Origin: Terramyces sp. JEL0728
Lineage: Eukaryota > Chytridiomycota > Chytridiomycetes > Rhizophydiales > Terramycetaceae
Assembly (NCBI GenBank): GCA_027603945.1
Contig: JADIIU010000097.1
Coordinates: forward strand, 1-49,331
Length of the DNA: 49,331 bases
Direction of reading: 5' to 3'
The notes beneath the pieces are model-generated. The model was not told where the DNA came from. It worked only from the letters and a program-made list of their open reading frames with translations, and did no database searches. The position numbers and the translations under genes are program-made. Positions 11,849 through 47,829 of this stretch are shown piece after piece. The number at the start of each line of letters is the position of its first letter. Position 1 is the first letter of the stretch.

Positions 11849-13308
11849 TTATTTCTCGTATTCATCAAAGAATTCTCCTTTAGTTTCTGGTAATAATAAG
11901 GTAACAAGAAACCCGCTAAACATGACGACTGCATAAAAGCCAAGGACCAGCGAAGGATACTTTTCAAAATAAGGATTGATTAATGCTACTCCGACAATTG
12001 CGCCTACTTTACCCGATGCTGCTGATATTCCATGGCACCTAGATCGAAATCTGGTTGGGAATAGTTCACTCGGAATAACAAATGTGGTGACATTCGGACC
12101 AAAATTGAAAAAGAATTGCGATATAGTGAATATCAGTACAAACAGTGCTACATTTGTTTTGATCGTGTTCCAAAACACTGAGAGTATTGCAAGACAGGCT
12201 CCAATTACAACAAACCCTATGCATTGAATTGGTTTGCGTCCCATTCTTTCAATCATTGACACAGTCATCCAGTAGCCAGGTACTGTCCCAAGCAAGGAAA
12301 TAATCAGCCCACCAAGTGCCAATTCATAGTATTTGTCAAAGGCAGAGAGATGGCCTGTGCCTCCTCCAAATCCAATTAGTGATAGTATTAGTGGCTGATT
12401 CAGTGATAATCCATACCAGGCGATATCCAAAGCAAACCAGCAGTATGCACAACTGCATAACCTGATGAAATTACTCTTGACCATAGCCCATTCCTTAAAA
12501 GTTAAAACTTTACGAAAAGTCTCGTCCGAATCCACTGTTTTGAGACTAGTGTATGCTTTTGACTCTTTGAGCGTCAACCTGAAATACAAGACAATCGCAG
12601 AGGGAATAACTGAAAACAAGAGCACGATTCTCCACACATAATCCAGATTATAGAAATCCTGAATAATATCGTCTCTTAGATACAACATTGTAGATATTGT
12701 TACGATTGATCCTAGTAATATTCCAATTCCTTGCATTGAAAAAACTGCTGATACCATCATTCCTCTATATTTTGGACCTGTTCTTTCCGCTGTAATTATT
12801 GCAGATTGTGGATAGTCGCCCCCCATACCTGTATTAAACAGAAATAACCTATTCCCATGAACACCCGCCAAAATCCAAGTACTGGAAGGATTGAAAAAGT
12901 CCTTATGCTAGATGAAGCAAGAGTGCAGCCAATTGTGGAAACTAGTACAATCATCATTTCAATTCCGTATACTTTGTTTCTTCCAAACACATCTCCGGCA
13001 ACTCCAAATCCTATTTGTCCAATAATATTTCCAACATGAGTGCAGACTTTTAATAGTCCGTCGATCAGTGGATAGTCTGAAGCAAAAGTAGAAAGGTATG
13101 GCGGCTTGTCTGAAGGATAGTATGTTTGGTAAATTAATGGCAGCAGTATGGAAATTACAAAAATGTCGTAGGCATCAATCATGAAGCCAGTACCGGCCAA
13201 TAGGACAGTGGGTATGTCGAATCTATCATTATTTCCAATTGTTTCTGCATCGTTTCCTATATCCAATTCGTTTGTCAGCAGTTTGTCGTCTATTGTTTGC
13301 TCAGTCAT
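11849..13308 (-). CDS. Pho84-type phosphate:H+ symporter (MFS)
   Basis: Two reading frames join through a 20-nt intron (12829-12848, GTTATTTCTGTTTAATACAG), giving 479 residues. The junction restores the family signature GFWRVFMGIGMGGDYPQSAII. Further marks are the first-loop GDVFGRNKVYG, LTLKESKAYT after helix 6, SMIERMGRKP, and a C-terminal LLPETKG. The twelve hydrophobic helices are in the usual two blocks of six, with an acidic N-terminal tail. Members take up inorganic phosphate with protons at the plasma membrane. The start at 13308 is the first ATG and precedes the first helix by ~30 residues. It is divergent from the CNNM gene, with 263 bp shared upstream. Substrate is inferred from family. 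Confidence 0.85.
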
Positions 13309-13571
13309 TTGAAAAAATCTGTTTCAAAAAATAGCCAAGAAATTCAAGATCATCGACCGGCTGTATTTCCTACATTACTGTTATTTATATTGCCTGTTCA
13401 GGTTAAACGCATAATAATAATATCGTTCTTGTAGCATATTCCCACTAAATTATTCAAATTTCATCATAATTGGATGATAATGGAGAATGTGGTGATGTGC
13501 ATTATCAAAATCTGAAATAAAGAGTCCCTGATTCAGCGGTTATTATCAGGAAAAAGTTAAAAAAATATTTC

Positions 13572-15154
13572 ATGGACTTGCGATACTTTATTTTAACAGC
13601 ACTTGTACAAACCACTCCAATACGGAAAAAATTACCAGAGGAGCCGCTGCCAGAGTGGGAGTTTCTCACGCTGGTTTTCGCTATCGCTGCACTGGTTTTA
13701 ATTGGCGGTCTTGTTGCAGGTACGATTATTTAATACAGGGTTGACTATTGGCGTAATGTCGCTTGATGCTACTAATTTGGCTATTCTTAAAGTATCAGGA
13801 ACCCCATTTGAAAAGAAATGTGCGGAAAGGATCGAACCATTAAGAAAGAAAGGACACCTGCTACTTGTAACATTGCTATTGGTGAATACAGTCGTCAATG
13901 AAACACTACCGATATTATTTGATACGATACATTATACGGGATGGAAGGCGGTTTTATCGTCTACAGTTTTAATTGTTGTATTTGGAGAGTAGCTGCTATT
14001 AACGTAGAATTTTACCGCAGGCTGTTTGTTCAAGATACGGATTGCAAGTTGGAGCATTCTTTTCATGGTTAGTTCAAGCAATGATTTATGCACTGTATAT
14101 TATTGCATATCCCATTGCCGCGCTCTTGGATTATATCTTGGGGCACAAAGACGGAACAGTTTATTTGCACGCCGGGCTAAAGGAGCTCGTAGCGTTACAT
14201 GGCGAAGATCAGGAAGGACCTTTGTCCAAAGACGAAGTCTCTATTTTACGCGCAGTATTGGATTTGCGGTCAAAGACTGTCGAGGATGTGATGACTAAAA
14301 TACAAGATGTGTTTATGCTGTCAATGAACCAAAAACTGGATAGGACTACTTTGCAATTGGTATTTGTTTTTAATTTAGATGGTAAAAGCAGGACACTCCA
14401 GAGTGCCAGTGTTCATTGGGACAGACAGACATAGAATAGTAGGGACACTGTTAGTAAAACAGCTAGTGCTAAACGATCCAGACGAAGAAACACCTATTGC
14501 AACCATGAAACTCCGTAAACTACCCAAGGTGCGATCAGACACACCATTATTTGAAATGCTGCATATTTTTGAGAGTGGTGCTTCTCATATGGCACTGGTG
14601 GTACAAGAAGTAGAACCCGCTTGCGCAAGCGGACAAGAAGCAGTGGGACAAGTGCACGTTACTTCTAGCCCGAGATGGACGCTAAAGAATCCAGCACCGG
14701 AAGAAAGACCCTACCTCACACTCGGTATAGTTACGTTGGAAGACGTAATTGAAGAGCTTATTGGCGAAGAGGTAAATGCTGATTGACAAAGATTATTGAT
14801 GAAACCGATGTATACGTGGATATGCAATCCAAAATCAAAGTACACCGCAAAAAGACTCAATCCACCCAGGCACCACCTAGTGTACTCGAAATACCAGAAC
14901 TCAATATTGATGAAATGACAGATGACGAGCTAGAGCGCAAACCGCTGCTACAATACGTAAACAAAAATTCTGCATTGAACTATGAAAAACTAACTCTTCC
15001 AACTAGTATGCATGAACGTAAATCGTCTAGCGAGAAATGGAAGAAAAAGCAACTGTATGATGCAAAGGAGCTTGCTGGTGATATACGGCCTGATATTGAG
15101 TCGGCCAAGAAACTCTCCAAGTTGGGTAACGTTGCTGAAGATGATTTTGAATAA
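13572..15154 (+). CDS. CNNM/Mam3-type membrane protein (DUF21 plus CBS pair)
   Basis: Five exons separated by 19-20-nt introns (13720-13738, 13989-14007, 14360-14378, 14772-14791) give 501 residues. Splicing rebuilds family hallmarks exactly at the joints: GLVAGLTIGVMSLD, VFGEILPQAVCSRYGLQVGA, LQLMVKAGHSRVPVF and EELIGEEIIDETDVY. DUF21 supplies the first helices and CBS motifs follow. Family members (yeast Mam3, animal CNNM) take part in Mg/Mn homeostasis, Mam3 at the vacuole. The C-terminal tail is short and charged and lacks an obvious cyclic-nucleotide-like domain. The ATG at 13572 precedes the first hydrophobic stretch. Without the introns the locus would look like four broken ORFs. Confidence 0.9.
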
Positions 15155-15513: not shown

Positions 15514-16284
15514 ATGAAAGTCTTTTACAGAGAACCTGCAACAAAAGTATCTGCCAATTAAACTTAGGTAATTGTAACTGGTGATTTCGATAACTGGAGC
15601 CAGTCCGTCGAAATGACTGCTGTCTCTGGAGTGTTTGAAGCAGATATCAGAGAAGGTATTTTTAAGTTTGTAGCTGATGGCGAATGGATAGTCAGTCACG
15701 AATATGCCGTTGTAACCGATGAGCAAGGAAACCAAAACAACATCCTCAGAGAAGGTATAGATCTAGCACCAATAGAACAGTCTATTGAAACTCCAGAAGT
15801 TGCAGAAATGGCTGCTGGGGAGCCAAAGGAAGAGTTGAAGCAAGATATGGCTGCCGAGGTGCCAAAGGAAGAATCAAAGCAAGATATGGCTGCTGAGGAG
15901 CCAAAGGAAGAATCAAGGCAAGATATGGCTGCTCCGAAAGTGTTAGAAAAGGTTGATGAGGCAGCAATTGAAGGGTTGAAGCACGATGTTATAGCTCTAG
16001 TGCAAATAGTAGAAACTAGCGAGGGATCAAAGGTAGAATTAATGCAAGATATTGTAGCTCCGGTTGAATACGCACCAATCGTACTAGAAGCCGAAAAAGC
16101 TGTTGCTTCAGTGGTAGGCAATGTTGACAGTGCTCTTCAAGAAGCCAAATCTGAAGTCACAGTAGTGCCAGCAAAGAAGAAAAAGTCTTTCTTTAACATG
16201 TTCAAGAAGGAAAAGAAGGATAAGAAGGTTGTTTTGGCCAAGGGCGATAAAGGGCCAATATTTAGAAGAGTAACTATTGACTAA
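15514..16284 (+). CDS. CBM48/AMPK-beta-like glycogen-binding domain protein (Crp1/Mdg1-like)
   Basis: A first exon of 11 codons (MKVFYREPATK) joins through a 21-nt intron (15547-15567) to VIVTGDFDNWSQSVEM. The joined product of 249 residues starts with the beta-sandwich typical of AMPK-beta CBM48 modules and yeast Crp1/Mdg1. It carries the GDFDNW core and FKFVADGEW. After residue ~75 come three repeats of the form EVPKEESKQDMAA, and the C-terminus is strongly basic (KKKKSFFNMFKKEKKDKK). The tail could bind membranes or nucleic acids. Function in this organism is unknown; yeast relatives have been linked to signalling and cruciform DNA binding. Confidence 0.7.
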
Positions 16285-16640
16285 TCTTAGTTGACCAGAG
16301 TATTTTCCAAAGATAATGTTAAAACCGTCAACTGATTTCCTTAATAAATTACAATTTTCTTTTAGATCTTGCGAGTTGCATTGACAAGTGTAAAGACCGA
16401 GAAGCGATCAGCTTCAGATGCTTCTACCGTATAAGATGCCCACTAAAATTTCTCAATGACTTTCTCGCTTGAATTGTAGTTTATAATATTCAGTGTATAG
16501 GACTCACATTAAGTGTTGTATCCTGCAGAGTAGCGTAGCAATATTCTGGCAACAAATCAACGTGAAACGAAAACACATTGTGAAACATTTTTGACAGCGG
16601 CATGGGAGATATAAAAATGAAAATCAAGGTCTAAAACTTG
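16285..16640. other. Intergenic region, no gene seen
   Basis: About 356 bp between codirectional genes with no ORF, repeat or RNA fold that I can support. Confidence 0.5.
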
Positions 16641-18073: not shown

Positions 18074-20056
18074 ATGACAAAGGCAGCAGCAGTGTTATCC
18101 ATAGAAAATGAAATGAACGACGGGATGGGTAATTACCGCTAATCGCAGCTGAGATAGAGCTTCAAAAATTGCAAAGACAATATAGAATCATGGAAGGAGA
18201 TAGGAAAGCCTATTCTGAGGAATCTAGACTGTTAATTGGGAAACAAAGGTAAATCAAGTTAACTGTAGAGCCTCCATTGAAAAATTACGGGTTGATAATG
18301 AACATTTGCAAGACGAATTGAGATTATTGGAACAGCGCAACGAAGATAGAAGGAAGAATGGCATTCAAAGTAAAAAGGCCGAGGCAATGGCAGAACAAGC
18401 AGGTACCCAAAAGTAATCTAGATTTATTGCAAAAGCGTATTAGGCAGATATTGGAAGAAATTGCCAACCTGGATAAAGAGACATCCAAACTGAATCATGA
18501 GGTTGATATTCATCGCGCAAAATTGGGCGGTGTGAATGCAGCGCAAATCAATAATGCGGCAATCGATAAGCAAGTGCGGGTATTGGAAAACAGACTGGAA
18601 AAAGCGCTCATCAAATTCAACAAAGCACTCGCTGTCAACAAGAAACTGCGCGGAGTGATTGATAATCTACGAAGAGAAAGACTTGTATTCGATAATATTT
18701 ACCATAAATTTGAAAGGGAACTGCTGGAACAAAAGAAACAAATGGCAGATATCATCGAAACGAGCAATGCTGCATACGAAGCTAGGTAATAGATTGTAAC
18801 AGCAGAGACGAGGCCCAATCTAAAATTATTGTTCTGAGGGAAAAAGCCGAAAAAGAATATCAGTCGTATATCCAAGAAATGAAAGAATACGACAGAATCT
18901 TGGAACAGGACAGAAGACTAAAAGAATTCATGGCTACCAAAGCAGCAAACAGGACTGAAAAGTTTGAAAGTAGAAACAAGCAAGCTAACGGTAATTTTAG
19001 TTAATCTCAGGCAAAAAGGATATACTCGGAAACAACAAATTCCCATCACAAGAGGCTCTCCACGTTCCTCTCAACACTTATGAAAGTGTATTCTCTGAAA
19101 TCCGTAAAGTCACTGGCATTTCAGACATTGGAGAATTAGTACAAAGATTCACTGCTGTTGAAGACCAAAACTTTTCACTCTTCAATTATGTAAACGAGAT
19201 CAACAATGAAATCGAATTGCACGCTGAAGAAATTGTAGAGTTACAAGCAAAACTAAATGCAATGAAAGTTGAAGGGGTTGCCGTCGAAGAAGAACGCAAA
19301 AAGACACTAAAGCAATTAGAAGTACATTTAATTAATGCTAGCATAATTTGAAGACCACTAATGAGAAATGTCAGCACTATGACAAGCAGTACAACGAAAT
19401 CAGTGTTATTTTGAGTGACTTGACTAAAGGCGTTGAAAGTATTATTGGCGTATTGCAGCAGATTGCCAAACAGAGGCCAGCTTCTGCCGCCCCGGCTAAA
19501 GAACTAGAAGACGACGGCGAAGAACATCCCGTTCATACACCTACTACCTCAAAGCGGTCTGAAAAGGTTCGCCAAATGATTGATTTCCCACTCCCTGCAG
19601 ACACTCTCGGTCCGCAGGGTGTATCAGAAGGCAACTTGATTCAGTTCTTGGGATTAATTGAACAGAAAGCAAATGACTTGCTGACACTAAACTATTTGGT
19701 AAATTCACCAAAGAAAGCGGTTCAGTTGACAGGAGACCAGGAAGGATTACAGATTATGCCTGCTGGCGGTGTTGCTGGATTGCTAGGACAAGGGCCTACA
19801 GCGCAGGTAGGAAATATCACAATCGTTGCTCCAAGCACACTGTAATTCTTTCTAATATAGTGATGACCATGATTCTGGAGATAATGCTTCTGACGAAGAT
19901 GATCGTCCACTAACTAGAGAAGAGCTGAAGCAAAGAACTCTAAGAGGAGTAAGCCGTTATTAATTGTAGCTGATTAAACGTGAAAAAACTGCCAATGCTC
20001 ATAACAAACAGACCGTAGCTAAATCAAAACGCAAAGTTGGACAAAAAAAGGAATAA
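18074..20056 (+). CDS. Outer dynein arm docking complex subunit (ODAD1/CCDC63/CCDC114 family)
   Basis: Nine exons split by eight introns of 19-21 nt (18129-18148, 18249-18268, 18403-18421, 18786-18805, 18991-19010, 19322-19341, 19842-19860, 19949-19969) give 607 residues, almost all coiled coil. Family blocks are clear: LENRLEKALIKFNKALAVNK, LRRERLVFDNIYHKFERELL and the run ending IETSNAAYEARDEAQ, the last restored by splicing. Chlamydomonas DC2 and animal ODAD1 dock outer dynein arms onto doublet microtubules. The gene shows that this organism makes a motile flagellum with outer arms. The C-terminus is acidic, then basic (AKSKRKVGQKKE). The first ATG after 17988 was chosen. Confidence 0.9.
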
Positions 20057-20661: not shown

Positions 20662-21079
20662 ATGGTCGCTGTCACTGGTTATGATTCCTCTGCAATCTTT
20701 CAACAAATTGAAAAAGGATTAGCTGCCTCCCCTGCAGATAAAGAAGCAGCCATCAAAAAAACTAAAGCCATCTTCCAAGTACTTGTTATTAACCCTAGTT
20801 TGATGTCAAGAACAAGGAAGGTAAAGTTCAACAATGGACTTTGGACTTGAAATCCCAAGGAACTGTAAAGACTGGCGCTGCTTCTCCAAAAGCCGATATC
20901 ATCATTGCCGTTGCCGATGCTGACTTTGTTAACCTAGCTTCCGGTAAATTACAAGGACAAAAGGCATTCATGACTGGAAAAATCAAGATCAAGGGAAATA
21001 TGATGTTGGCAACCAGTAATTTGTTATTAATGTAGAACTCGACGGTGTATTGAAAGATTTAGGCAAGGCTAAGCTTTGA
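20662..21079 (+). CDS. SCP2 sterol-carrier domain protein with peroxisomal C-terminus
   Basis: Three exons with 20-nt introns at 20779-20798 and 21016-21035 encode 125 residues. The fold signature includes AIFQFDVKNKEGKVQQW (joint restored by intron 1), TLDLKSQGTV, ADIIIAVADADFVNLASGKL and the GKIKIKGNMM segment. It is a stand-alone SCP2 domain that binds lipids, acyl-CoA or sterols. The protein ends in AKL, a PTS1 peroxisomal import signal also found in animal SCP2. A TATA-like ATATAAAAA lies about 35 bp before the ATG. The short upstream frame from 20569 ends before this and is not part of the gene. Confidence 0.9.
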
Positions 21080-22367: not shown

Positions 22368-23229
22368 ATGCTTGCTTCCCCTGCTGAACCAATGACCACT
22401 AACGAAACCAAACAAGAATTATTCACCGTATTTGTAGGAAACCTCAGCTATGACACCAATGCTGACGCTCTCAAATCCTTGTTTGCTCCAGTCGCACCTG
22501 TCCAAGAAGTTAGACTCATCAATCGATTTGGTAAGCCAAAAGGATTCGGGTTTGTATCCTTTGGCACCCAAGCTGAAGCTGATTCTGCAGTTCAAACTCT
22601 CGATCAAAAGGAAATTGAAGGCCGTGTAATTAAAGTACAATTGGCCACTACCAAGAAACCAAGAGAGCCATCTGCAAAGAAACCAAAGAAGGCCAAGGTA
22701 CATTTTGACTTACAAGCAGAGAGTTGATGATGAAAAGGAAGAAAAAGAAGGGGAAAAGGAAACTCTAGCTGCAGCTCCAAAAAAGAATAAGCGCAGACCA
22801 AAGAGTGCCAAGAGAGCTGAAAAGGAAGAGTCCAAGGAGGAAGTGCAAGAAAAACCAAGGGAAAAACCACAAAAGAAGGACAAACCGGTGGAAACCAAGG
22901 AAAAGTCTCCAGAAGAAAAGGAAAGAAAACCACGCACTTTCCGTCCAAAAAAACAACGCGACCCTAACCAAGCTCTTTCTGAAACTGTTGCTTTTGTCGG
23001 AAACCTGCCTTTTGTTGTAGATGATTCTAGTCTTGGTGAAATCTTTTCTGATTTCAAAATTAAGCGATCTCGTGTAGTATTTGCCCCTAGTGGAAGAAGC
23101 AAAGGATTTGGATTTGTAGAATTCGAAGACAACGCTTCGTTGATGAAAGCAATTGAAGAATTTAATGGTGCAAAGGCTAACGATCGTATCTTGGTCATCA
23201 AGCAAGCTTTTGCTGAAAACCAAGAATAA
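22368..23229 (+). CDS. Two-RRM RNA-binding protein with lysine-rich linker
   Basis: Two exons joined over a 19-nt intron (22698-22716; an alternative acceptor gives 22 nt, also in frame) encode about 280 residues. RRM1 (residues ~20-95) has RNP2 VFVGNLSY and RNP1 KGFGFVSF. RRM2 (~205-278) has AFVGNLPF and KGFGFVEF. Between them is a highly charged Lys/Glu linker. The architecture is like fungal nucleolar or ribosome-biogenesis RRM proteins (Nop13/Rnp24 type), but linker-rich proteins cannot be assigned with certainty. A second in-frame ATG nine codons in could also serve as start. Confidence 0.8.
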
Positions 23230-23744: not shown

Positions 23745-25372
23745 ATGAATCCAGTTGTAATCTCTTGCTTTGAATCCGTTCAACAACCCATCCTCCTAGT
23801 ATCTCCAGACCTCCAGATAGTATATAGAAACGAGCAAGCAAGAGCACACTTCAAATTAAAAAAATTAAGCTATTATTTTGATTTCATTCCTGGCGGCAAA
23901 ATTACTACTGTGTTCCGTAACAAAAAGACTGAAGTTTCCTGTGGAATACTAAAGCAAGAAACTGAATTTGAATATGTGCATGTCCTGGTACTGAAGATAT
24001 TTGATGACGAAATTGTCGGCAGGTACGAAACTGAATTCGAAGGTTGCTTGGAATTAATGTAGAAATCGAAGCTTTGGGAAAGGGAGGATTCGGGCAGGTA
24101 GTTCGATCAAGAAATAAGCTGGATGGGCAAGAATACGCAATCAAAAAAGTACTGTTGAATTGCTACCCTGAAGAAATACAAGATGAATTTGACTCGCCAT
24201 TCCAATGTTCTCCTACGCAAACATTGCTGAACGGACCTAATTCTTGGGTGGATAGCCATACCAGAAGATTGTCGATCCAAGATCACAGAGTCCTAAGAGA
24301 AGTAATCACTTTGGCATCCGTGTCGCATCATTCCAATATCGTCAGATACTATACATCTTGGATAGAAACGCATTCTGAATGCATCTCTAATGATAATGAC
24401 GATATTGAATCTGTAGATAGCGATCAATCTCCTCACTATGCTACCTTGTACATACAAATGCAACTCTACAAATGCGAAAACCTAAGAGAATGGCTCGATA
24501 ACCGCAAAGAAATTAACTTTGATCTGAATCTCTCGATATTCATGCAACTTGTCACTGCTCTATGCCATATTCACTCTCAAGGTGTTATCCATCGAGATTT
24601 CAAGCCCGACAATATCTTTATGGAAAATGGACAGGTCCATGTTGGCGATTTTGGACTGGCAAAGAATATTACTGATCATATTGTAAATCAAAATGAAATT
24701 GCAACCGAAGCATCATCAGATCTTGGAACTTACTTTTACATTGCGCCAGAAATCACAGAAAATTCCCGGTGCATCACGAAATCCGATATCTACTCCCTTG
24801 GAATTCTATTATTTGAGTTGTTTATCATATTCAAAACAGGAATGGAGCGCTCACTTGTCCTCAATGATTTGAAGAATGGTAAATTCCCCAAGGAAATGGA
24901 AATTAAATACCCAGTCGTTTGTGATTTAGTAGCACAATTGACGCAATTAGACGCAGAAAAAAGACCAAGCGGACAAGAAATAATGACCCATCATATCTTC
25001 AATAATGCCTTATCTGGGGGCGGCGTACCCCACACATATTCAAATGAGGTTGATTTGTTTTCAGCTTCATTCAAGAAAGCTATTCAAATATCGCCAATTC
25101 AAATGTACAAACCATCTATACCAAAAATTGACTTGTCAGAAGTAACCCCAAAGCCAAAATTTCAAACTGATAGTGGGATATTCCATCTTGACGATGTTGA
25201 ATCTCCTGAACCGTCAAACGATCATGTAGAATTGCTAGCGCAATTTGGAATGACTCTAAAGAAAAAGAGGGGGGACAAGGACAGAATCAGAGAATTGGAG
25301 AAAACTGTAAAGAACCTTGAAGCTCGATTGCAGTACATGCAAGTACGATCAGAGTTTCTTGAAAAAAAATAA
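23745..25372 (+). CDS. Protein kinase of the eIF2-alpha kinase (HRI-like) group with N-terminal PAS-like domain
   Basis: Two exons with a 20-nt intron (24043-24062, GTTGCTTGGAATTAATGTAG) give 535 residues. Residues 1-~100 look like a PAS sensor (LVSPDLQIVYRNEQARAHF). The kinase domain has the glycine loop GKGGFGQVV, AIKKV, HRDFKPDN, DFGLA and SDLGTYFYIAPE. An acidic insert after strand 5 (NDNDDIESVDSD) and the GT-FYIAPE activation loop mark the eIF2-alpha kinase group (HRI/PEK/GCN2). The C-terminus is coiled coil. Members phosphorylate eIF2-alpha under stress and lower translation. The PAS module suggests redox, light or ligand sensing, which is inference. Confidence 0.8.
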
Positions 25373-32651: not shown

Positions 32652-33228
32652 TATTGTCTGAAATGTAAAGCTGCCGACAATGACCGTGTCTGTATTATGC
32701 TGGTGCTATAATGGATATATCACTCAAATAATGCCCAGAGTTACAAACTTTTTTAATATCACTGAAAATTGAGTGCTAATTCAGTTTGAAGTGAAAGCTT
32801 GGATGGTGGCATTTCATTTAGGTGCTCGCTTCTATTGCTATTGCGACGGGTTGGTACTGTTCATCTCAAGTTCCAGTGTCGATCACATAACCGGGGTATT
32901 TAGTTCTACCAGTCATTGCTGAGTAGCATATGCCCAATTGCCTCATGAGTGACATTGAGGGATGTCTGCCCGCCATTAGGCAAATAATATTCATTGAGAC
33001 CTTGTAGTTTAAATCACGGGTATGCCGAAATTGAATTCTTTCAAATCACCCTGGCTTCAGAACAGCCAGCAATCACAACTGAACAACACCTGCCAAGCAA
33101 CAAGCAGATCAATAGCCGGTATCCAGATAATTAATCTTGTGGGGGAAGTAATGGTGACCAGATATCATGTGAAAAAAATTACCGCTCAGTCACAGGAAGG
33201 GAAAAACTTGACTCAAAAAAACAGAAAA
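32652..33228. other. Divergent intergenic region
   Basis: About 577 bp between the 7TM array and the RIB3 fusion gene. The RIB3-side frame stays open back to an ATG at 33022, but that stretch shows no conserved sequence and is treated as leader DNA. No other feature seen. Confidence 0.45.
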
Positions 33229-34666
33229 ATGTCCAGGAGAATTGTATTAGAAAACATTCATTATCTTAATGGAAAGGAGTTTGAACTCGAATCAGGAAAT
33301 TTAGTTTTGAATGACGGGCCAGCTGTTACTCAAATCGTTGCTGATTGCCGTGGATATATCGCACTGCCATCATTCGTCAATGCATATGCAGAAACATTTA
33401 AAAAATCATTGGTTCAGCAAGGATTTACCATAAATATTACTTTTGACAGTGCCGATCCAACCGCTGTCGATATTAGAAAAAATGGATGGAATATCTCTAA
33501 AATTAACGATTTTCAATATTCATTGGTAAAGAACGGAACTAGAAAAACCATTGATAGCATTGAATTGAAGGATTTCTATGGGTCTGGAAATCTTGAACAC
33601 CATTCATCCAATATCTGGCCGTTGCTTTTAGCCAGGGCTGCAAGGTATATTCATTCTAATCAGACAAAATGACTGCAAGGAATTGTTGCGCCAACTTACT
33701 ATTGCTCCAGCAGAAATACTGGGATTGGGAGACACTTTCATTAACGATTCAAAAGCAAACTCTAATGTTATTCTATTTAAAGTTTTACCGCAGTGGGATT
33801 TAGCAACAACGGGTACTATTTTATTGATGTAGAATCCATCTTGAAATCAATCTTTTTACACGGCGGGAACGACAATAAAGTTGCCGCTGCATTCAAGGAC
33901 GGACAGCTGTTGTATGGACAGGACGAATTCACAGATATCTACCAAGCAGCTTCATTATCAATGTACTACGATCAAGAAAACGATCCTTCAAGGGCAGTTG
34001 GCGGTGAAAAGCATGAATTTGACTCTATTGAATCAGCACTTGAAGATTTCAGTAATCAGCATTAACAATAGAAAAAGGAAACTTTGTAGTAGTTGTAGAT
34101 AACGAAGACCGTGAGAATGAAGGTGATTTGATTATTGCCGGAGAAGATTTCACTCCTGAAAAAGCAGCATTTATGATCAGATACACAACGTATTTTGTTT
34201 TAACTGTAGCGGACTCATCTGTGCTCCTGCTACTGGCGCTATCCTGGATAGATTAAAGCTTCCATTGATGGTTGAAAAGAATACAGATTCTTTAAAGACT
34301 GCGTATACTATCTCCATCGACGCTACTAAAGGAACAACCACTGGTATTTCTGCACACGACAGATCTACCACAATCAGACTATTATCAACACCAGATTGTC
34401 AACCAGAATCATTCAACCGGCCAGGACATGTGTTTCCACTTAGAGCAGTTGAAGGAGGTGTCCTAAAAAGAGTTGGACACACTGAAGCATCAGTTGATTT
34501 GTGCCGCTTAGCAGGCAAGGCTCCAGTTGCAGCCATTTGCGAAATTTGTCTGGATAACGGTAAAATGGCAAGAAGAGATGATTTGATTGTATTCTGCAAG
34601 AGATGGAATTTCAAACTGATTACCATTAACGATTTGGTTAATTACAGAGTAAAACATGGACTCTAA
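33229..34666 (+). CDS. RIB3: 3,4-dihydroxy-2-butanone-4-phosphate synthase fused to an amidohydrolase-like N-terminal region
   Basis: Five exons with introns at 33645-33663, 33813-33832, 34052-34071 and 34190-34209 (19-20 nt) give one 452-residue frame. Residues from ~250 on are a complete DHBP synthase, the riboflavin-pathway enzyme acting on ribulose 5-phosphate. Motifs are [62 protein letters not shown] and [11 protein letters not shown]. The N-terminal ~240 residues resemble a shrunken amidohydrolase: [14 protein letters not shown] stands where PGFVNxHxH metal ligands are expected, and [15 protein letters not shown] resembles the usual C-terminal block. The metal histidines are missing, so this part is probably non-catalytic. 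No ATG lies between the two parts near the RIB3 domain start, which favours a true fusion. Confidence 0.8.
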
Positions 34667-34787: not shown

Positions 34788-36127
34788 TTAGAAATCAGTA
34801 TCATCCAAATCGTCTTCTCCATCATCACCAATATCAATACTAGATTCATCATCTTCCTCCTCTTCCTTTTCTGGTTTTCTACCGCCTCTAGCTTCACTTG
34901 GTCGTTGTTTTGGCTCGGGGATATTGCCAGATTCTACATCTTCATCAACAAATTCTCCGCTCGACATGTCAGAGTCCATAGACATGCCATCATCCTAAGG
35001 TTAATACGTTTTACTTCAAATTCGTCTTCGTTAGAGTCTGAGTCTTCCTGTTTATTCAGTCTATTTCTTGACCCAGCAGCTACATTAGTCAAAAGTACCA
35101 GCCGGTCTATTCGGTCTAGCTGATTTATTTCCATCATTTTCGCCTCTCAGTAATTCCAACTCTTCTTCGCGCAATCTGCTCTGCATTCGTTTCAAGGATG
35201 ACTCTGTTTCTTCAAATTTATCCTGCTCTTCACGGTGGTACTCGTCCAACTGCTGTTCTAAAAATGTAAGATTCCTGAATTTTTCCATATATATATTGTA
35301 CACTCTTACAAGGTCCACTTCAATCTTTTCGTATTCGTCCATATAAGCAGGACTTGGTTAGTACTTTTGTTACCGCACTCCTTGAAGTGATTTCAGACGC
35401 TTTTCAGCCCGTTCCAATTCACCCTTCTTCTTTTCTATTTTTGCCAATAGATTGTATTCGTCTGCTTGCAAGCTCTCAAACGTATTTTGAGTCGTATTTA
35501 ATTTTTCGCGCAGCTTGTTTATTGCCTCTGTTACAGCTTTTTCCATTGCCATCAATTCAAATGGTTTTGAAATCACTGTTGTACGAACATCCCGCAATTC
35601 CAATTCGCGTCCAAGCAAATCAAACAGCTCTGCTCCTTTTTCTGTTATGGCGCTTGCTAGTGCTCTGCAAGCTTTAAGCTTCCCTAGTTTATTTGAGATG
35701 TCCAGAGGCGGAAGAGTAATCGACTCCTGAATTTAGCACTGAAATACATTTTCTTTACCGGTTATTCTTGCTCTGGATAACAATTCAGAGATTTTCATCA
35801 GTTCTCGGACTGCAAATCCATCTGCTTTATATAAATTCCTTGTATTTAATCGGATTTGCGCTTTTGGTGCTATGTAGGCTGCTATGGATTTCACAAATTG
35901 GACTCGACCGCTTTCTGACTTGAAGTCGAGTGGGATTCCAAATGATGGATCGTAGCTGGTTAATATTGATTTACTTGGTTACCAGCCAGTACAAGATATT
36001 TCCCATGGTTTCAAAATTTGGCGTTCTAAAGCTTTCCATAGATACAGGCTGCGGATACCCCAATCCCCTTAATTGCTCTGTAAACGCTTCATTAATTGCT
36101 CGTACCTCTCATTTCTCTAAACGACAT
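34788..36127 (-). CDS. IFT38: Intraflagellar transport protein IFT38 (CLUAP1)
   Basis: Seven exons with six introns of 19-21 nt (34995-35014, 35080-35098, 35353-35373, 35727-35747, 35956-35974, 36087-36105) give 406 residues, close to the usual ~410. The N-terminus MSFREMR plus FTEQLRGLGYPQPVSMESFR is typical of CLUAP1. Then come FVKSIAAYIAPKAQIRLNT and LYKADGFAVRELMKISELL, the coiled coil with SVxRPAYMDEYEK-type joint (here VRPAYMDEYEK) and YMEKFRNLTFLEQQL. The tail is Asp/Glu-rich. IFT38 is a core IFT-B subunit needed to build cilia. The gene starts 16 bp from the stop of the codirectional transporter gene upstream, so its promoter must overlap that gene. Confidence 0.95.
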
Positions 36128-36143
36128 TTTGACGCGAAAGATT

Positions 36144-37679
36144 TTATTCAAAAAACAATGATACAACTTGTAAAGCTCCAAACAGCACACCAAACCCAGA
36201 TAGCAAAATACCGATTGATTGCTTTGCGGTCCATGCTTCTGATTTTGTGACTTGGTAATAATAAAGCGTTGGCAAAACATAACACATGCAGACACCTCCA
36301 GTAGCACCCACAAACGCAAGGTAGAAATCTAAATTCGGAATTGCAAATGCAGTTGCATAAGAGGACACCATTATTACCGTCGAGAGAACTTTTCTGCGCG
36401 ATTCTCTTGTCAAAAGTATGTCTATTTCTGCATGGGTAGGAGAATAACTTGAAGAGTCGTCGTCAGGTATTTCAGAGTATCCGATAAAACGTTCATCTTT
36501 GAAATAATTGTAAAGCGATTCCATCGCCAGCCTGCATGGATGAGCTTGGATGGGAAAAGAGAGGGCGGCAAGCAGTGAATAAAAGAACTTGCCAATCAGT
36601 ATCAGCACTCCAGTTTCAACTATATTAGGCATGCTTACAATTATCTAGCACTATGAGTTTAGTTTCCGTGCCAAATGTCATGTATCCTATAATTCCTATC
36701 GACATGTATGTAAGCCCAACCAGTATAACCGATAAATCAATGACAGAGAATATGTGGATTAGCTGTTTCGGCTCCAAGCTCTGTCCTTGTATATAGTTTG
36801 CATCAATGAGATTATAAATGGAAAATATCTGCATTAGCAACACTTACATTCTGGTGGCAAGTGAATGCAAAGATGAATATGGGGATGCTTTGAAACGTTG
36901 ACCAGTCAAATACAAATAATTCATAATCGCCTATTGATCTGACAAATATTGCCAAGTATGGTATCAATACTGCCAAATAGCAGGCACAAAATAGCGCCAA
37001 ACCAGAAAACCACCAGAAATCATCCACCGATTTCGCGTAGTTTAACGGCATGATTACTACTAGAAACGCCAACATCCAAAAGAACCGATTTGTCAATACT
37101 GGATATAATATAGACTCTTTTGCTATTATATACTGGAATATTTCTGGCATTCCTTCTCCTATCGAAATCAAGTAGCTAACAGCGAAGCCCAAACATCCCA
37201 ATATAACTGATATATCGCATAGTGCTGCTAGTTGCTTTGGTAATACTGATTGTCCAATTGATGAAAATGAAGGTTCACCATCTGTAGTCACTAGGATATA
37301 AGGTTTCGGTCTTTGCTGTCCATGGGCCAATTCCGCCGAAAACACTAGTAGTCGCAGTGAAAACCAAGTTGCAGCAATAGCAAATACAGTGATAACGAAC
37401 CCTACATCAGTGGATATTACCTTGAACCAGACCAACTACAGAAAAAGCAAAGGGCAGTGAAACAATCCCAGTCCCAAGTATAGTATTACACAAATCAACA
37501 GTAGAATGTAAAACAGAGGATTTCTTTTTATCAATCATCAATTCCAAATCCGATATTGAAGGTTCAAGTGGTGGCAAAGTGTAATCTTCGTCGACAGTTG
37601 GATGAAAGACTGATTTTGTTATTTCGTACCTCGTTTTAGTCACTGAATTTCTCTTGTGTAGTTGGATTTCCGTTTCCAT
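36144..37679 (-). CDS. Amino acid transporter, AAAP family (Avt/SLC38-like)
   Basis: Four exons with 19-nt introns (36620-36638, 36829-36847, 37402-37420) give 492 residues. After a polar 60-residue tail comes the family's first-helix motif NTILGTGIVSLPFAFSVVGL, then FVITVFAIAATW restored by splicing, FIFAFTCHQNIFSIYN (the central FxCHxN block, also restored) and GIIGYMTFGTET. The C-terminal helices follow a cytosolic acidic loop. Eleven or so helices are visible. Members move neutral or other amino acids with H+ or Na+ across vacuolar or plasma membranes; substrate unknown. Confidence 0.85.
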
Positions 37680-38494: not shown

Positions 38495-39528
38495 ATGAAT
38501 CGCTTGCTACGAGTTCCAAGAATTGCCAAACCATCAACTCGCTCTAGCCACTCTTTAATTGTTCCATACTCCCACGTTCCACTTGTAAAGTTTATCAACG
38601 GAGTCCCAGCAGAACAAGTTAGAGAATTAACCGATTACGAAAAAAAATGGGACTTTTGGACAACCTCCACTTCATTCTACGAAAGAAAACCAATTACCAG
38701 AGTAATTTTTATTAATGTTAGGGTTTAGTCACTGTACCAGAAGGAGAATCCTGGGTTGTTGAACGGTTTGGAAGTTTCTCTAGAGTTTTACATTCAGGAA
38801 GCCATGTATTGCTTCCAGTTGTTGATCAAATCAAAGCTGTAAAGCCTTCCGCTGCAGTGTCAATGGGTGTATTCTCCCCTGGCGTCTCTTCAAAGAGTAA
38901 TTTATTTTAATGTAGATGGACTTGTTGATGTATACGCAGTTACATATTTCAAAGTAATCGATGCACAATCTGTATATTGCATTTAATCATAGTCTACTTA
39001 TTACCGCGATCCACAAACCAACAAACCAGATTCTGAAAGATCAGCAGCTAGAATTGTGCGTGAATCATTGGAAAATGAAATTGCAAATGTTGACGCAAAA
39101 TCTGGATTATCTGCATCAGCAAGAGAGTCACTAGCTGAAAAAGTGTTGACTCGTTTGAGAAACCATGAAGCAGATTTTGGATTAGAATTTACCGCTGTTG
39201 AGCTCCGTAATTATTTTTGATTGTAGGCGGTGCATATGATGTTGCTGATAAAGTTCCAGCTAGAATTAGAGCATACGAAGCTCCACACCCAGATTTCGAA
39301 GCACCTGGACACCATCTATCTAACGACTACTGGTCTGAATACTTGGTGCCACCTTTCTTCAACAAAGTTACCTATGGTTCCAACAAACAGCCAGTTACCA
39401 TTGCTACACCAAGTTTAGAGTGGAATATTCCATCTCCTCCAGATTTCCATCACTTTAACCAACAACCAAAAGTCACTGTTGCTCCTGAAGCTGAAGATTT
39501 GGCTAAATTGGGACTTAAAGCTCACTAA
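38495..39528 (+). CDS. Mitochondrial SPFH/stomatin-like protein
   Basis: Five exons with introns 38702-38721, 38897-38915, 38972-38992 and 39207-39226 (19-21 nt) give 317 residues. The Arg/Ser-rich N-terminus (MNRLLRVPRIAK) looks like a mitochondrial presequence. The SPFH core starts VTVPEGESWVVERFGSF and continues HVLLPVVDQI, GLVDVYAVTYFKVID, ARIVRESLENEI and FTAVELRGAYDVADKVPARI. Members such as SLP-2 scaffold inner-membrane complexes. The expected long C-terminal coiled region is replaced by a Pro-rich tail, so it may be a divergent subgroup. A single-TM anchor is not obvious. Confidence 0.7.
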
Positions 39529-39612: not shown

Positions 39613-40636
39613 TTATTGGTGCTCAATTGGCTTTGGATTGTAGATGGCTGCTTCCTCTCTTTCCTCCTGTACCACTTGCTCTTTATCCAATCTGTCCAAC
39701 TTGGACAATCTGTTCAAAACTTCCAATCTATAATTATCGACCTGTTCAATAGGGTTATCTGCATTAACTAGTATTACCGACAAGAACAAGCATCCTCAGT
39801 GAAGGTAGTTTTTGCAGTTTATCGATTTGGTCCATTGTTTCAATCTTGTTTTGACTGATTAGAAATTTCTTACCGCAAGTTCAAATAAGTAAGGTAATTC
39901 AATCGCTCAAACCCGTCCAAGTTGCTAATTTTGTTTTGTCTCAAATTTAGAACTTGCAGATGAGGTAAATCCGGGAATTTCAGAGCGGAAATGTCATTTG
40001 CAGCCTGGATTAAATCTACTTACCAAGTACAATCGCTGCAACTTTGGCAGATTCAATTTTGGATTGGTTTTCATTCTGTTTCCCCTCAATTCCAGATGCA
40101 GCATTTCCGGAAAGTCTTCAAAAGCGGCATTTTCAGTCAACTTGTTATCTACATTAGTGGAAAGTACCATTCAAGTTCAAGAACGACAGCATTGGCCAAG
40201 AAGTAACAGTAAAATCTTTCAGCTTGTTCTTTGCTAGATTAACGTGTTGTAGATATTTGAATTTATCTATAGTTGCAGGCAAATTCGAAATGAAATTACT
40301 TTGCAGATTCAGAGACAGTAAAAACTCTAGACTTGACAGTCCTTCAATATTAACCAAGTTGTTATCGGAACAGTCAATGTAACGCAAGTGAGGAAATCCT
40401 GCGATTGCATTTAGGTTTGTAATTTCCTTTTCGTGTACTTCCAATCTTGTGTAAGCATGAGATAATCCAACTGCTGTTCGCGCAATCAAAGAAAGATTTT
40501 GAGATATCAACTCTGCTGTCAAAGGTAGTGTTTCTGACGTTACTGGAATTACTTCTTCATCCTCAGCTTCTTTTTTTTCAGCTGGTTCGTCTGGAAGAAT
40601 TTGGTCTTCAATTTCTGCGTCGTTGATTTCTTCCAT
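39613..40636 (-). CDS. LRRC23-type leucine-rich repeat protein of the axoneme
   Basis: Five exons with four 19-nt introns (39759-39777, 39855-39873, 40006-40024, 40149-40167) give 315 residues. After an acidic N-tail the diagnostic block SLIARTAVGLSHAYTRLEV appears, as in LRRC23, then about seven leucine-rich repeats (for example LRYIDCSDNNLVNIEGL, LQHVNLAKNKL and LNLRQNKI). Introns cut in the repeats and splicing keeps the LxLxxN spacing. LRRC23 belongs to radial spokes of motile cilia. With ODAD1 and IFT38 it makes a third ciliary gene in this window. Confidence 0.85.
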
Positions 40637-40865: not shown

Positions 40866-41811
40866 ATGTCAAATACAACGTGCTATTTGGCAGGAATTTG
40901 TGATTACAGACTAAACTACTTTGGATGCACAGGAGAGAGAGCAAATATCTTTGCATCGATAGATTTGATCAGCATTATCTTCACCTCAGCTGTGCTTCTT
41001 ATGTACTTGACAAAGGTCAAGCAGAACTTTAAACAAAAAGTTTTACATCAAGGATCGAAACGGTGGTCCGCAATGGATAGTATTTGTGTAGTATGCTGCT
41101 GCAGCACGGTTGTAAGAATAATCCAGCTAGTAATAGTTCGAGCAACGGCATTTATAGATACGTCTCAAACGGATGCAATTGAATTACAAAGATACATACA
41201 ATCAACAATTCTAATGGATTTTCTGTACTTTGGGTCTGGCGTAATTGGATCAAATATGTTTGTCGTAGGCATTATTAATGTAGGCGACTGTGGTTACGGC
41301 TTACGTTGGCGTCAGCATGTATTCAGACGTGAGTATTTTCGGAATTCGAGTATCGACCGAAAAGGTACTAGGGATCATTCGTTTACTGGTGTTTATCGCT
41401 TCATTAATATTCAATATATGCTGGGCAACTCTTGGCACAACTACAACCAAAGAAGATTACACTTTGTTCAGACGGTGTGTATACGCTCTATTCCTCGTCT
41501 CAATCACATTCATTACTATACCGGTCGTGTGGTATTTTTCAAGCCAAGTTCTAAAGCAAGCGTCGACTCGTAAAAAGGCAGATATGCAAAAACGAAAGGC
41601 TAGTGTAAATAATTTCCGATTAGCCATTAATCTAGTGATTTGTTTGTTGTATTTGACGAATATCTGCAACAACATTTTGCTGCTGTGCGGGTATGAGTTG
41701 GATTGCTTTCAGCAAAACGACACTGCTATCATTTTTCTAAAGTGTGCTAGCGATTTAATAGTATGGGTTTCAAATTCTTTTATGGCCTTTTATTTCTACA
41801 AAATCGGATAA
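40866..41811 (+). CDS. Seven-helix membrane protein, paralogue 5 (dispersed, short loop)
   Basis: Two exons with a 19-nt intron (41265-41283, GTAGGCATTATTAATGTAG) in the same position and phase as paralogues 1 and 2 give 308 residues. ICDYRLNYFGC, MDSICVVCCCSTVVRIIQLV, FNICWATLGTTTT and DLIVWVSNSFMAFYFYK show membership. The third inner loop is only ~25 residues (KQASTRKKADMQKRK), against about 80 in the array members. The frame extends upstream to a TTG at 40833, but ATG 40866 fits the relatives. It lies on the opposite strand, 8 kb from the array. Confidence 0.75.
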
Positions 41812-41864: not shown

Positions 41865-42865
41865 TTAAATGACATCAGATTCTTCAGAAATATCTGCAAA
41901 CAATGGAGTAGACAAGTAACGCTCTGCAGTATCTGGTAGCATTGCCAAGATAGAACTTCCTTGTGGTGCATTTTCAGCTATTTTCAAAGCAGCATTGAAG
42001 GTAGCGCCGGCAGAGATACCAACAAAGATACCTTCTTTTTGAGCCAGCAATTTAGCAGTAGCGATAGCTTCTTCGTCCCTTGTAGTCAATAGTTGGTCGT
42101 AGCAGTTTCTGTCTAATACTTCTGGCAAGAAATCTGGAGTCCACCCTTGAATCATATGTGGTTGCCAAGGCTTTCCATTCAACAAACTTGCCTTTTCTGG
42201 TTCAACTGCAATAATTTGGGTTTCTGGTCTGGCATCACGCAACATTTTAGATACACCAGTAATAGTACCACCAGTTCCCCATCCGGAAACAAAGTAATCA
42301 AGGTTCTTTCCAGCAAAGTCACTCAAGATTTCCGAAGCGGTGGTTTGACGATGATAAGCTGGGTTAGCTGGGTTTGCGAATTGGGAAGTAAGGAACCATC
42401 CATGCTCCTTTGCTAACTCTTGAGCTTTGGCTACCATCCCAGATCCTTTTAATTCCTTTGGGGTCAAGATAACCTTGGCTCCCAAGTATTTCATCAGCTT
42501 TCTTCGTTCAATAGAGAAAGTTTCAACCTACATTAACTGAAATTACCATGGTAGCGACGAATGGATAGCCTTTGGCTGCACACACCATGGCCAATGCAAT
42601 ACCAGTGTTACCAGAAGTAGCTTCTACGACAGTCATGCCAGGTTTCAAGACACCTCTCTTTTCAGCATCTTCAATGATTGCAACGGCTGGATTAACTTTT
42701 GTCTACCTAAACGGTCCTTGACTGAAGCCATTGGGTTGAATGATTCAACCTTGACGTACATATCTATGCCCTTTGGAGCTAATTTGTTGATCTTTACGAT
42801 CGGGGTTCTTCCAATGGTTTCGAGAATCTACATTAACTGAAAACTACGTTTTGATAAATTGGCAT
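41865..42865 (-). CDS. cysK: Cysteine synthase (O-acetylserine sulfhydrylase)
   Basis: Four exons with introns 42528-42546, 42687-42706 and 42828-42847 (19-20 nt) give 313 residues. PLP-enzyme motifs follow in order: [26 protein letters not shown] (Schiff-base lysine), [12 protein letters not shown] (phosphate/substrate loop), [27 protein letters not shown] (phosphate cradle) and [15 protein letters not shown]. The enzyme makes cysteine from O-acetylserine and sulphide. No haem or CBS domains are present, so it is the plain OASS form. The first and third introns in gene order are nearly identical to each other. It is convergent with the 7TM paralogue 5 gene, 53 bp away. Confidence 0.95.
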
Positions 42866-43402: not shown

Positions 43403-43952
43403 ATGAACAATTTGCAAAACAGACTGTCAACAGTCTCGAGCATGTACTCTACTGCATCAATGTTCTTTTTATTCTTCTGCGCTCTATCTCACTTGTACTA
43501 CATCCAATTTGAACAGCCAACACTGAAAACTTTGAAACCAGCCAAAATCGCACTTGCAAAAGGAAGGATTCCAAACGATTGGAAAAACAAGCCCACACTA
43601 GGACGACTGCATTTTGATATTGATGCTGATTTACGCAATTATTTCAATTGGAACACAAAGATGTTGTTTGTATCTGTTATTTGTGAATTCAGCAACGATC
43701 AGTACCATGTCAATCACGGAGTCGTATGGGATGATGTTATTTGGTAATTAGAACTAATTTAGGAACAAGGAAGATGCGTTGATCAAGTACAAAAAAAAGA
43801 GGGGGGAATACCCAATACATGATTTGACTGATAAATTACAAGGGACGAAAGCTAACCTCACTCTGCAGTTCCAGATTATTCCTTGGGTTGGGTTCATGGT
43901 TACTGATCGTGTAACTGTCGAGAATGCAGTCACTTTTATAAAAACTGCTTGA
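43403..43952 (+). CDS. SPC3: Signal peptidase complex subunit 3 (SPCS3/Spc3)
   Basis: Two exons with a 19-nt intron (43744-43762) give 176 residues, the usual size. It starts MNNLQNRLSTVSSMYSTASM with one N-terminal helix, then GRLHFDIDADLRNYFNWNTK (the family's FDIxADLxxxFxWNxK core). VNHGVVWDDVIWNKEDAL is restored by splicing. KANLTLQFQIIPWVGFM follows. The subunit is an ER single-pass protein that supports cleavage of signal peptides, in keeping with the many secreted products nearby. The first ATG is used. Confidence 0.9.
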
Positions 43953-45978: not shown

Positions 45979-46462
45979 CTTTTTTGTGAAATCGAAAACT
46001 GTCTTTTGTGACATGAAACTCGCGAGGCAAAGATAATTCGTACAAAAGTTTGCAGCGATAATACAAATAAACTTGGTAGATTATCTAGCCTTGAGAAGCG
46101 TACTTGTTATATCTGAAACCATTTACAACTGCAATATCGCCGAGCATTTGGCGGATCCACACTTTTTGCTGGACTGATGTTGGACAAGAGCGATTTGACT
46201 ACCATAGCTTACCAAGCTAAAGTATTCACTGTTATGTGCTTTGCCTCCAAAGGTCCCTTGAAAATATCATTAATTCATAGTGAGAAGCATCCTTGGCACT
46301 GGTAGCCAATAGCACAAAGCATCCATCAACACCACAAATAAAAAATAGGCTACCACTACTCATTCCGCCGTTTCTTCCGACCATTCCGCAACTATACAAA
46401 AATGATTTGTGAGCCCTTGAAGCCACTGACATTTTGTCTTGGTTAGCGGTTCCCAAATTACA
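45979..46462. other. Divergent intergenic region with one weak ORF
   Basis: A minus-strand frame from an ATG near 46432 to 46232 (MSVASRAHKS... to RDLWRQST) is open and has plausible sequence (GGMSSGSLFFICGVDG), but no family or signal is recognised. The rest holds nothing I can support. Confidence 0.35.
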
Positions 46463-47829
46463 ATGTGGCCAATACTTATCCCGCTTATAGCTGCAATACA
46501 AATAGACGTAAACAATAAGCAAGCAGTCAAGCAAATAACTACTCTGGCTGCCCAAAAGCTAAATTCTTTTTATGTTACATCAGGCCAAGGCAAAACCGCA
46601 GATGGAAAAGGATGCTTGAAGCAACACAAGATAGATGGTGATCCAACATCATTCAGTTGGTACGAATGCGGTGTCTTTTGGGGGTCGTTGATGGACTATG
46701 CTGAAATCACTGGCGACACCCAGTTCATCAATACAATTGTGAATTCAGTAACTTTGGCTTCTTATGGCAAAGTTGGATCATTTTTAGGGCCAGACAAGCA
46801 GTTCTCTGAAGTCTTTCATGGTGTATGGAACGATGATATCATGTAGCTGTTGCTAATTGTAGGTGGTGGTCATTGGTACCGTTATCTGGTGCAAAGCGGT
46901 TTGGTAAAGACCAAGTGATGCCTGGTGGTGTTGGGTACTTGCAGCTCGCAAAGAATACCTACGATGAAGTTTACCAACTGTGGACAAACGAATGCGATGG
47001 CGGAATATACTGGTCGAGATATCGCTCTAGCCCTAAAGATAACGAAAGATATTCCAAATCTGCAATTACTAATGCCCAGCATTTGCTTTCCGGCTCAACT
47101 TTATACAGTTTGTCTGGTAACAAGTCTTACTTGGAACAGTCTTATAGGATGTTTGACTGGATCGCTGCAAAACTGGTTTTCCCAGATTTTATGACTGCAG
47201 ATGGGATAAATGTGCAAAGCAGCGTCGGCCCTTGTTCGCTCAGTATTCCTAAAGATGGAAAAGCAGGCGTCTTTACTTCTCAGTCTTACATTTCCGGCAC
47301 TATTGTGGGTGCAATGGCGACTTTTTATTCGGTTTCAAAGAATGCTACTCACTTGACACTAGCTGAAAATATTGCAAAGAAGGCCTTATCCCAATTCCAA
47401 ACAAACGGAGTCATTTCCGACCACTGCGATCCAAACTGCGAAGTTATTTCAGTAAATCCAAAAGGAACGTATATCAGAGGGTTAGGAATATTGTACCAGG
47501 TAACTAAAGATCAAAAATTAAAGGATTTGATTAAATCCCAAGTCCAAAAAACTGTAACTGCCATGTTGAACACGTGCGATGCTAGTATGAATTGCAACAG
47601 CGCTAGTTGGGCTAAACCGCAGGTACTGGACAATAATATCCATGTAGCAATGAATAACCTTGAACTTTTGAATGCTCTCTCTATTGTTATGAATGGGGTT
47701 ACCAACCAGCAATTTACTCCACCTACTCAAGGTCCACCAGTTGCAATTGCTGAAACTGATCAAACTGGAAGCGCAATTTCGCTGTTCTCGCGGTATTCAA
47801 TCGCGCTCTTGCTTGTTTACTTTGTTTAA
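46463..47829 (+). CDS. GH76 endo-alpha-1,6-mannanase-like, GPI-anchored (Dfg5/Dcw1 type)
   Basis: Two exons with a 20-nt intron (46843-46862, GTAGCTGTTGCTAATTGTAG) give 448 residues. A signal peptide (MWPILIPLIAAIQI) starts at ATG 46463; the earlier TTG frame was rejected. The GH76 catalytic pair is in VWNDDIMWW, with the tryptophans restored by splicing. GGIYWSRY and the repeated helical-barrel segments are typical. The C-terminus (SRYSIALLLVYFV) is a GPI-attachment signal after a Pro/Gln linker. In fungi Dfg5/Dcw1 act in cell-wall cross-linking of GPI mannoproteins. This supports fungal affinity. Confidence 0.9.

Follow-up and report, generated by a model that had tools for sequence, protein, structure and literature searches.

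The window analysed here is a complete contig (C97) of 49,331 bases, from an assembly of 15,016,339 bases in 231 contigs, and its genes are interrupted by many segments of about 20 nucleotides (nt). With high confidence, we take these segments to be ordinary U2-type GT-AG spliceosomal introns of near-minimal size (19-22 nt), among the shortest known, in which the branch point is fused to the acceptor. The genomic evidence makes it very probable that the tiny introns are real and occur throughout the genome. They were predicted in all 21 stretches that were scanned, namely the window and 20 stretches on other contigs. With less assurance, we also think it probable that a free-moving organism of the fungal line has 19-22 nt introns as essentially its sole class and that a conventional spliceosome, with Slu7 and Prp18 among its parts, removes them. 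The lower size limit would then come from two short spacings and not from the loss of second-step factors.

A narrow size class across the assembly

The scan covered the window and positions 20001-30000 of contigs C1-C20 (20 stretches of 10 kb), 249,331 bases in total. Genes were predicted by a Viterbi gene finder over coding phase, with codon usage trained on long open frames. In a length-agnostic run, any intron of 10-400 nt was allowed at a single fixed penalty, with neither a site model nor a length model. With GT..AG ends this run inserted 213 introns, of which 80 were 18-22 nt long (including 23 of 19 nt, 37 of 20 nt and 12 of 21 nt). The corresponding counts for decoy ends were 7 of 177 (CT..AC), 7 of 197 (TG..GA) and 9 of 183 (GA..TG). 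The decoys thus give no peak at 18-22 nt, though the GT..AG ends themselves are imposed in the model.

These counts bear on another reading, in which a permissive gene finder has mended indels from sequencing or assembly, or mutations in genes undergoing decay. Such a finder does gain by restoring frames, as the 177-197 "introns" with decoy ends illustrate. However, the decoys have no 19-21 nt peak, and errors would not bear GTA, YTAAY and AG at fixed spacing.

When a site matrix from short introns was added and lengths were still left unmodelled, the finder placed 317 introns, 196 of them of 18-23 nt. With a length model as well, 291 of 316 measured 18-23 nt and 294 measured 18-25 nt, figures that are partly circular, the decoy test being the evidence. 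Most introns in both runs are thus of the size seen in chlorarachniophyte nucleomorphs. Among the 294, 283 are 19-22 nt long, and 108 of the 202 gene models have at least one tiny intron. The density with the length model is about 1.46 introns per kb of coding sequence. A harsh penalty, used in an intermediate run, yielded 128 introns; the run with site and length models replaced it. The multiple-of-three spliced length is imposed by the gene models and is not counted as evidence. An in-frame stop is present in 54 of 60 introns of 3n length, from which no inference is drawn, stop-free 3n introns being nearly invisible to the finder.

The original prediction concerned positions 11849-47829 of the window and proposed a genome-wide length histogram as a check. 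Beyond the window, the 19-22 nt class is predicted in every one of the 20 sampled stretches, with 3 to 27 tiny introns in each; the window has 52. Within 11849-47829, our length-weighted model gives 19 gene models with a total of 50 introns between 19 and 23 nt (21 of 19 nt, 19 of 20 nt, 8 of 21 nt, and one each of 22 and 23 nt; Table 1). Of these 50 introns, 48 start with GTA, and at least one (20934-20952) is doubtful. The 47 introns of 19-23 nt in 18 genes proposed earlier had a near-identical length distribution, and the near-universal GTA start described for them holds as well.

Protein matches and related genes

Nine window genes (CNNM, ODAD1, Cluap1, Aa_trans, Band_7, LRR, PALP, DHBP synthase and the sugar transporter) have 37 joints between them, of which 23 are crossed by Pfam matches. 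Such matches also cross 19 of 43 joints in ten genes on the sampled contigs, which were taken from 16 candidates and include NIPA, Snf7, bestrophin, MDM10 and RPN6. The two joints at which known motifs had been said to be restored are both correct, with GLVAGLTIGVMSLD across intron 13720-13738 and FTCHQNIFSIYN across intron 36829-36847. Three splicing factors that match in two pieces in raw DNA each become a single full match once the tiny introns are removed: Slu7 (139 and 104 bits, then 289 bits), SF1-HH (66 and 43 bits, then 114 bits) and Prp18 (109 and 56 bits, then 179 bits).

Three paralogous kinases of 35-57% identity have two introns in common, in the identical alignment column and phase. 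The lengths of these introns are 23/20/21 and 21/21/21 nt, and their inner sequence has diverged. This conservation of position among diverged paralogues is contrary to an origin by indels. So is the presence of tiny introns in the genes for Prp8, Slu7, SF1, U2AF65 and Prp18, all five of which carry them. We regard indel errors or gene decay as an extremely improbable source of the segments.

Near-identical copies also allow introns and exons to be compared. The introns of L046 and L047, 121 bases in all, differ by two 1-nt indels; the 2241 bases of exon contain no indel, and the other 744 bases contain three. The near-identical stretches L046/L047 (99.4%) and L004/L005 (98.8%) are either on separate contigs or on the same contig at a distance of about 36 kb. 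They are uncollapsed haplotypes or recent duplications.

Intron anatomy

The donor is GTA in 266 of the 294 modelled introns, and the commonest donor hexamers are GTAATT (46) and GTAAGT (16). A perfect YTAAY, followed by 2-3 bases and then AG, is present in 186. The short stretch from donor to branch is rich in T (41%). A branch motif could be scored in 285 introns; it was picked by our own scoring, which favours YTAAY, and the branch A is the one so assigned. The number of bases before the putative branch A is 13-15 in 238 of the 285, and the number after it, AG included, is 5 or 6 in 230. The latter corresponds to 3-4 nt between A and AG, close to the 4-6 nt given in the original prediction. 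The pairs of spacings (before and after A) include 13+5 (72 introns), 13+6 (52), 14+5 (44), 14+6 (39), 15+5 (9) and 15+6 (9). Because the donor-branch and branch-acceptor spacings show no dependence (p = 0.68), the lengths of 19, 20 and 21 nt can be explained by two narrow independent rulers.

The YTAAY motif is complementary to GUAGUA of U2. The U2 RNA of this assembly (a match of 140 bits) keeps the ordinary branch-binding sequence GUGUAGUA. There are also three credible GC-AG introns of 20-21 nt with a GCAAGT donor, in L027, in the SF1 gene (L043) and in the Prp18 gene (L044), and those of SF1 and Prp18 are confirmed by protein fit. GC ends gave 10 introns in all, but GA ends gave 10 and GG ends 9, and the GC-AG candidates with other donors were rejected. 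A 15-nt intron placed in SF1 by the first model was likewise rejected and is now read as a 21-nt GC-AG intron.

The segments might instead be removed or skipped by a route other than splicing by the spliceosome, such as ciliate-like DNA elimination, translational bypassing or a tRNA-type splicing endonuclease. Each of these would restore reading frames in a way that is invisible in genomic DNA. Against them stand the GT and AG ends, the complementarity of the branch motif to the U2 RNA of this genome, and the GC-AG introns of SF1 and Prp18 with their GCAAGT donors. Moreover, the tested splicing factors are all present, the stop codons are standard, and the gene content is fungal rather than ciliate. 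Such a route is very improbable.

In the mechanism that we propose, a conventional major spliceosome would remove the tiny introns, presumably by intron definition. U1 and U6 would read the GTAATT- or GTAAGT-like donors, SF1 and U2 would read YTAAY, and the nearest AG would be used with no need for a polypyrimidine tract, the order of these steps being our supposition. Intron length would be set by the 13-15 nt from the start to the branch A and the 5-6 nt from this A to the intron end.

Splicing machinery

Among the parts of the major spliceosome that were sought, U2, SF1, U2AF65, Prp8, Slu7 and Prp18 were detected, whereas U1 and U6 were searched for and not found. SF1 retains its helix hairpin, the KH domain and two zinc knuckles. 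U2AF65 has an RS-rich start and RNA recognition motifs (RRMs) that align to the human structure. In raw DNA, the U2AF_lg match (251.7 bits) stays under the cut-off of 310.3 because the gene is broken into exons, and the spliced protein matches human U2AF65. The entire Pfam domain of Slu7 is present and aligns to the human structure. Prp18 covers nearly the whole Pfam model (3-142 of 143). For Prp8, the fetched part matches the human chain over 2163 residues with 4317 bits.

The original prediction held that introns of this kind imply a changed spliceosome and pointed to U2AF, SF1 and Prp8 as the homologues in which loss or change might be seen. The expected loss fails because all three are present and conserved and have tiny introns of their own. 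For the parts that were tested (U2, SF1, U2AF65, Prp8, Slu7 and Prp18), an altered spliceosome is not supported. Judging from the genes recovered, tiny introns do not seem to require loss of the splicing proteins that were looked for.

Opposing evidence and alternatives

Several points weigh against ordinary introns removed by a conventional spliceosome. U1 RNA was not found in the assembly by Rfam at two thresholds, with E up to 10; the relaxed search gave weak matches in 9 bacterial or archaeal controls and none in this assembly. A pattern search for U1 in the 47 fetched loci gave no match. U6 RNA was not found in the assembly by Rfam or by pattern search. At donor position +5, T is more frequent than G (128 versus 61 of 290), which is unusual for ordinary U1 pairing. 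Outside 17-25 nt lie 22 of the 316 modelled introns (37-378 nt), which we read as probable errors. The indel contrast comes from a single gene pair: introns and exons of the L004/L005 copies are free of indels, and the L002/L003 pair is usable only in its homologous part and is uninformative on indels. Lastly, we infer the splicing of the tiny segments from genomic sequence alone.

The U6 searches also produced candidates that were rejected. Two weak Rfam matches are copies of a single coding repeat, and one pattern match with one mismatch is not U6.

The missing U1 and U6 and the frequent T at +5 would suit a spliceosome altered for such introns, for example with changed U1 and U6, a lost U2AF35, or trimmed branching factors as proposed for Stentor. 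Stentor is reported to have non-conserved branching-factor regions and no detected Slu7 or Prp18 (PMC9505925). Here, however, all five proteins that were sought (Prp8, Slu7, U2AF65, SF1 and Prp18) are present and conserved relative to human or Pfam, and GCAAGT at the three GC-AG introns suggests ordinary U1 pairing. U1 and U6 may have escaped detection through divergence, interruption of the gene or a gap in the assembly. We consider an altered spliceosome unlikely, while giving it real weight.

The 22 long modelled introns would also fit a mixed intron population with the tiny class as one part of it, and the finder is blind to introns of more than 400 nt and to those in untranslated regions. 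At 41-400 nt, however, GT..AG ends gave 98 introns, fewer than the decoys (132 for CT..AC, 135 for TG..GA and 128 for GA..TG). With the GT..AG count below the decoys, nothing points to a second class of longer introns within the 400-nt limit. Longer introns beside the tiny ones are thus a rather improbable addition.

Host organism

By gene content, the organism is likely a flagellated member of the fungal line. The flagellar genes are Cluap1, ODAD1 and IFT81. The fungal-type genes include MDM10 of the ERMES complex and the fungal transcription factor PF04082, which has 17 matches, 14 of them over the cut-off, in a comparison with 14 control genomes that are all prokaryotic. The chitin deacetylase and glycosyl hydrolase family 76 (GH76) genes also fit membership of the fungal line. 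Fungal-type and flagellar genes thus occur together, as in flagellated Holomycota. With the class predicted in every stretch, they support the earlier proposal of a bulk class of tiny spliceosomal introns in a flagellated fungus.

Comparison with other tiny introns

Introns this short had been said to be known from ciliates and nucleomorphs. This is right as far as it goes, but the list was too short: mikrocytids and dicyemids also have them (PMC10245619, PMC2483917). Chlorarachniophyte nucleomorphs, the relict nuclei of endosymbionts, measure about 0.4-0.6 Mb and have several GT-AG introns of 18-23 nt per gene (PMC4494063). In these nucleomorphs, 19 nt is the largest class in Bigelowiella natans (70.3%) and L. 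oceanica (49.3%), 20 nt is abundant in L. vacuolata, U4 was not found and U1 was found in one of four (PMC4494063). The present introns are like those of B. natans and its kin in the 18-23 nt range, the GT-AG ends and the occurrence of several per gene. Unlike chlorarachniophyte nucleomorphs, the genome here measures 15.0 Mb and has flagellar genes as well as the spliceosomal proteins that were tested. Its size and its genes for intraflagellar transport and outer-arm docking do not agree with a nucleomorph location.

In Stentor coeruleus, the introns are of 15-16 nt, with a weak branch consensus and a branch A that occupies position 10-11 and is 5 nt from the end; Slu7 and Prp18 are listed as not found (PMC9505925). 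Both systems have a single narrow size class and a branch A about 5 nt from the intron end. Here, by contrast, the introns measure 19-22 nt, the branch A is mostly at position 14-16, YTAAY is strong, and Slu7 and Prp18 are both present in full, which sets them apart from the Stentor type. The intracellular parasite Mikrocytos mackini has 224 introns of 16-17 nt in 179 genes and a highly reduced spliceosome (PMC10245619). It shares the narrow class with strong motifs, but the present introns are of 19-22 nt, occur at about 1.5 per kb of coding sequence, and coexist with intact spliceosome parts where tested.

A close branch point is also seen in yeasts. One survey gives a fixed branch-to-AG spacing of 2-8 nt in normal-length introns of several yeasts, with 2-3 nt in Yarrowia lipolytica and Candida guilliermondii, and no 3' polypyrimidine tract in Yarrowia (PMC2483917). 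By the same measure, the spacing here is also 2-3 nt. Both of these yeasts have few introns, and those of Yarrowia are rather long, whereas the present introns are common and tiny. In budding yeast, Slu7 is less needed where the branch is close to the acceptor.

In the open-licence literature we found no report of such an intron class in an organism of the fungal line. What is new is the combination of a flagellated organism of this line, a dominant 19-22 nt class and retained second-step factors. If this is true, Slu7 and Prp18, which act in step two, can persist with a branch 5-6 nt from the intron end. A fungal-line case with both factors would be a cleaner system than ciliates for asking what sets the smallest spliceable intron. 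Annotation with the usual minimum intron length would break most genes in such genomes.

Genes of the window

The gene models of positions 11849-47829 are collected in Table 1.

Table 1. Gene models with tiny introns in positions 11849-47829 of the window, and the support for their joints
Feature	Position	Strand	Tiny introns	Support or remark
Sugar/MFS transporter	11849..13308	-	12829-12848 (20 nt)	Pfam Sugar_tr 40-257 crosses joint
CNNM/CBS gene	13572..15154	+	13720-13738, 13989-14007, 14360-14378 (19 nt each), 14772-14791 (20 nt)	CNNM and CBS matches cross 3 of 4 joints
Gene	15514..16335	+	15547-15567, 16270-16290 (21 nt each)	Model only
ODAD1-like outer-arm docking gene	18074..20056	+	8 of 19-21 nt: 18129-18148, 18249-18268, 18403-18421, 18786-18805, 18991-19010, 19322-19341, 19842-19860, 19949-19969	ODAD1_CC, 271 bits, crosses 3 of 8 joints
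Gene model	20662..21079	+	20779-20798, 21016-21035 (20 nt each)	Model only
Doubtful intron	20934..20952	-	19 nt	Model only; antisense model 20700-20967 overlaps plus-strand gene
Two-RRM protein	22368..23229	+	22698-22719 (22 nt)	RRM-like matches 22416-22661, 22990-23238
Protein kinase	23745..25372	+	24043-24062 (20 nt)	Pkinase match 24272-25000
Fused model, at least 2 genes	25474..28646	-	26640-26660, 28212-28232 (21 nt each)	Model only; 272-nt "intron" probably intergenic
Membrane protein	28871..29967	-	29594-29616 (23 nt)	Model only
DHBP synthase gene model	33022..34666	+	33645-33663, 33813-33832, 34052-34071, 34190-34209 (19-20 nt)	DHBP_synthase 1-191 of 191 crosses 2 of 4 joints
Cluap1/IFT38	34788..36127	-	6 of 19-21 nt: 34995-35014, 35080-35098, 35353-35373, 35727-35747, 35956-35974, 36087-36105	Cluap1 1-267 of 268, 330 bits, crosses 3 of 6 joints
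Amino-acid transporter	36144..37679	-	36620-36638, 36829-36847, 37402-37420 (19 nt each)	Aa_trans crosses 3 of 3 joints
Band 7/SPFH gene	38495..39528	+	38702-38721, 38897-38915, 38972-38992, 39207-39226 (19-21 nt)	Band_7 crosses 3 of 4 joints
Leucine-rich-repeat gene	39613..40636	-	39759-39777, 39855-39873, 40005-40023, 40149-40167 (19 nt each)	LRR_9 crosses 3 of 4 joints
Membrane protein	40866..41811	+	41265-41283 (19 nt)	Model only
PLP-dependent (cysteine-synthase-like) gene	41865..42865	-	42528-42546, 42687-42706, 42828-42847 (19-20 nt)	PALP 2-295 of 295 crosses 2 of 3 joints
Gene	43403..43952	+	43744-43762 (19 nt)	Model only
Glycosyl hydrolase family 76	46463..47829	+	46843-46862 (20 nt)	Glyco_hydro_76 match 23-402 crosses joint at residue 126.7

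Rfam and tRNA scans of the window gave no matches. A family of related membrane proteins with a common GICDYRANYLGCG-like start is present at 28871-32651 and 40866-41811, and a further copy seems to be fused into the 25474-28646 model. One tested member (30282-31397) had no Pfam match.

Identical direct repeats of 205 nt at 1025-1229 and 10995-11199, both within chitin-deacetylase coding sequence, flank a run of intronless virus-like frames. From its sequence, 1025-11199 seems to be a DNA-virus-like element integrated in or next to a chitin deacetylase gene. Frame 8054-8845 matches the Pox_A32 ATPase, and frames 6870-8009, 5077-5859 and 4522-5052 match no Pfam family. Inside the element, a frame of 982 codons (1208-4156) has many Asn/Thr-rich repeats spaced by 15 nt and appears fibre-like. 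Near the far side of the element, a 61-nt repeat is present in three tandem copies (9546-9728).

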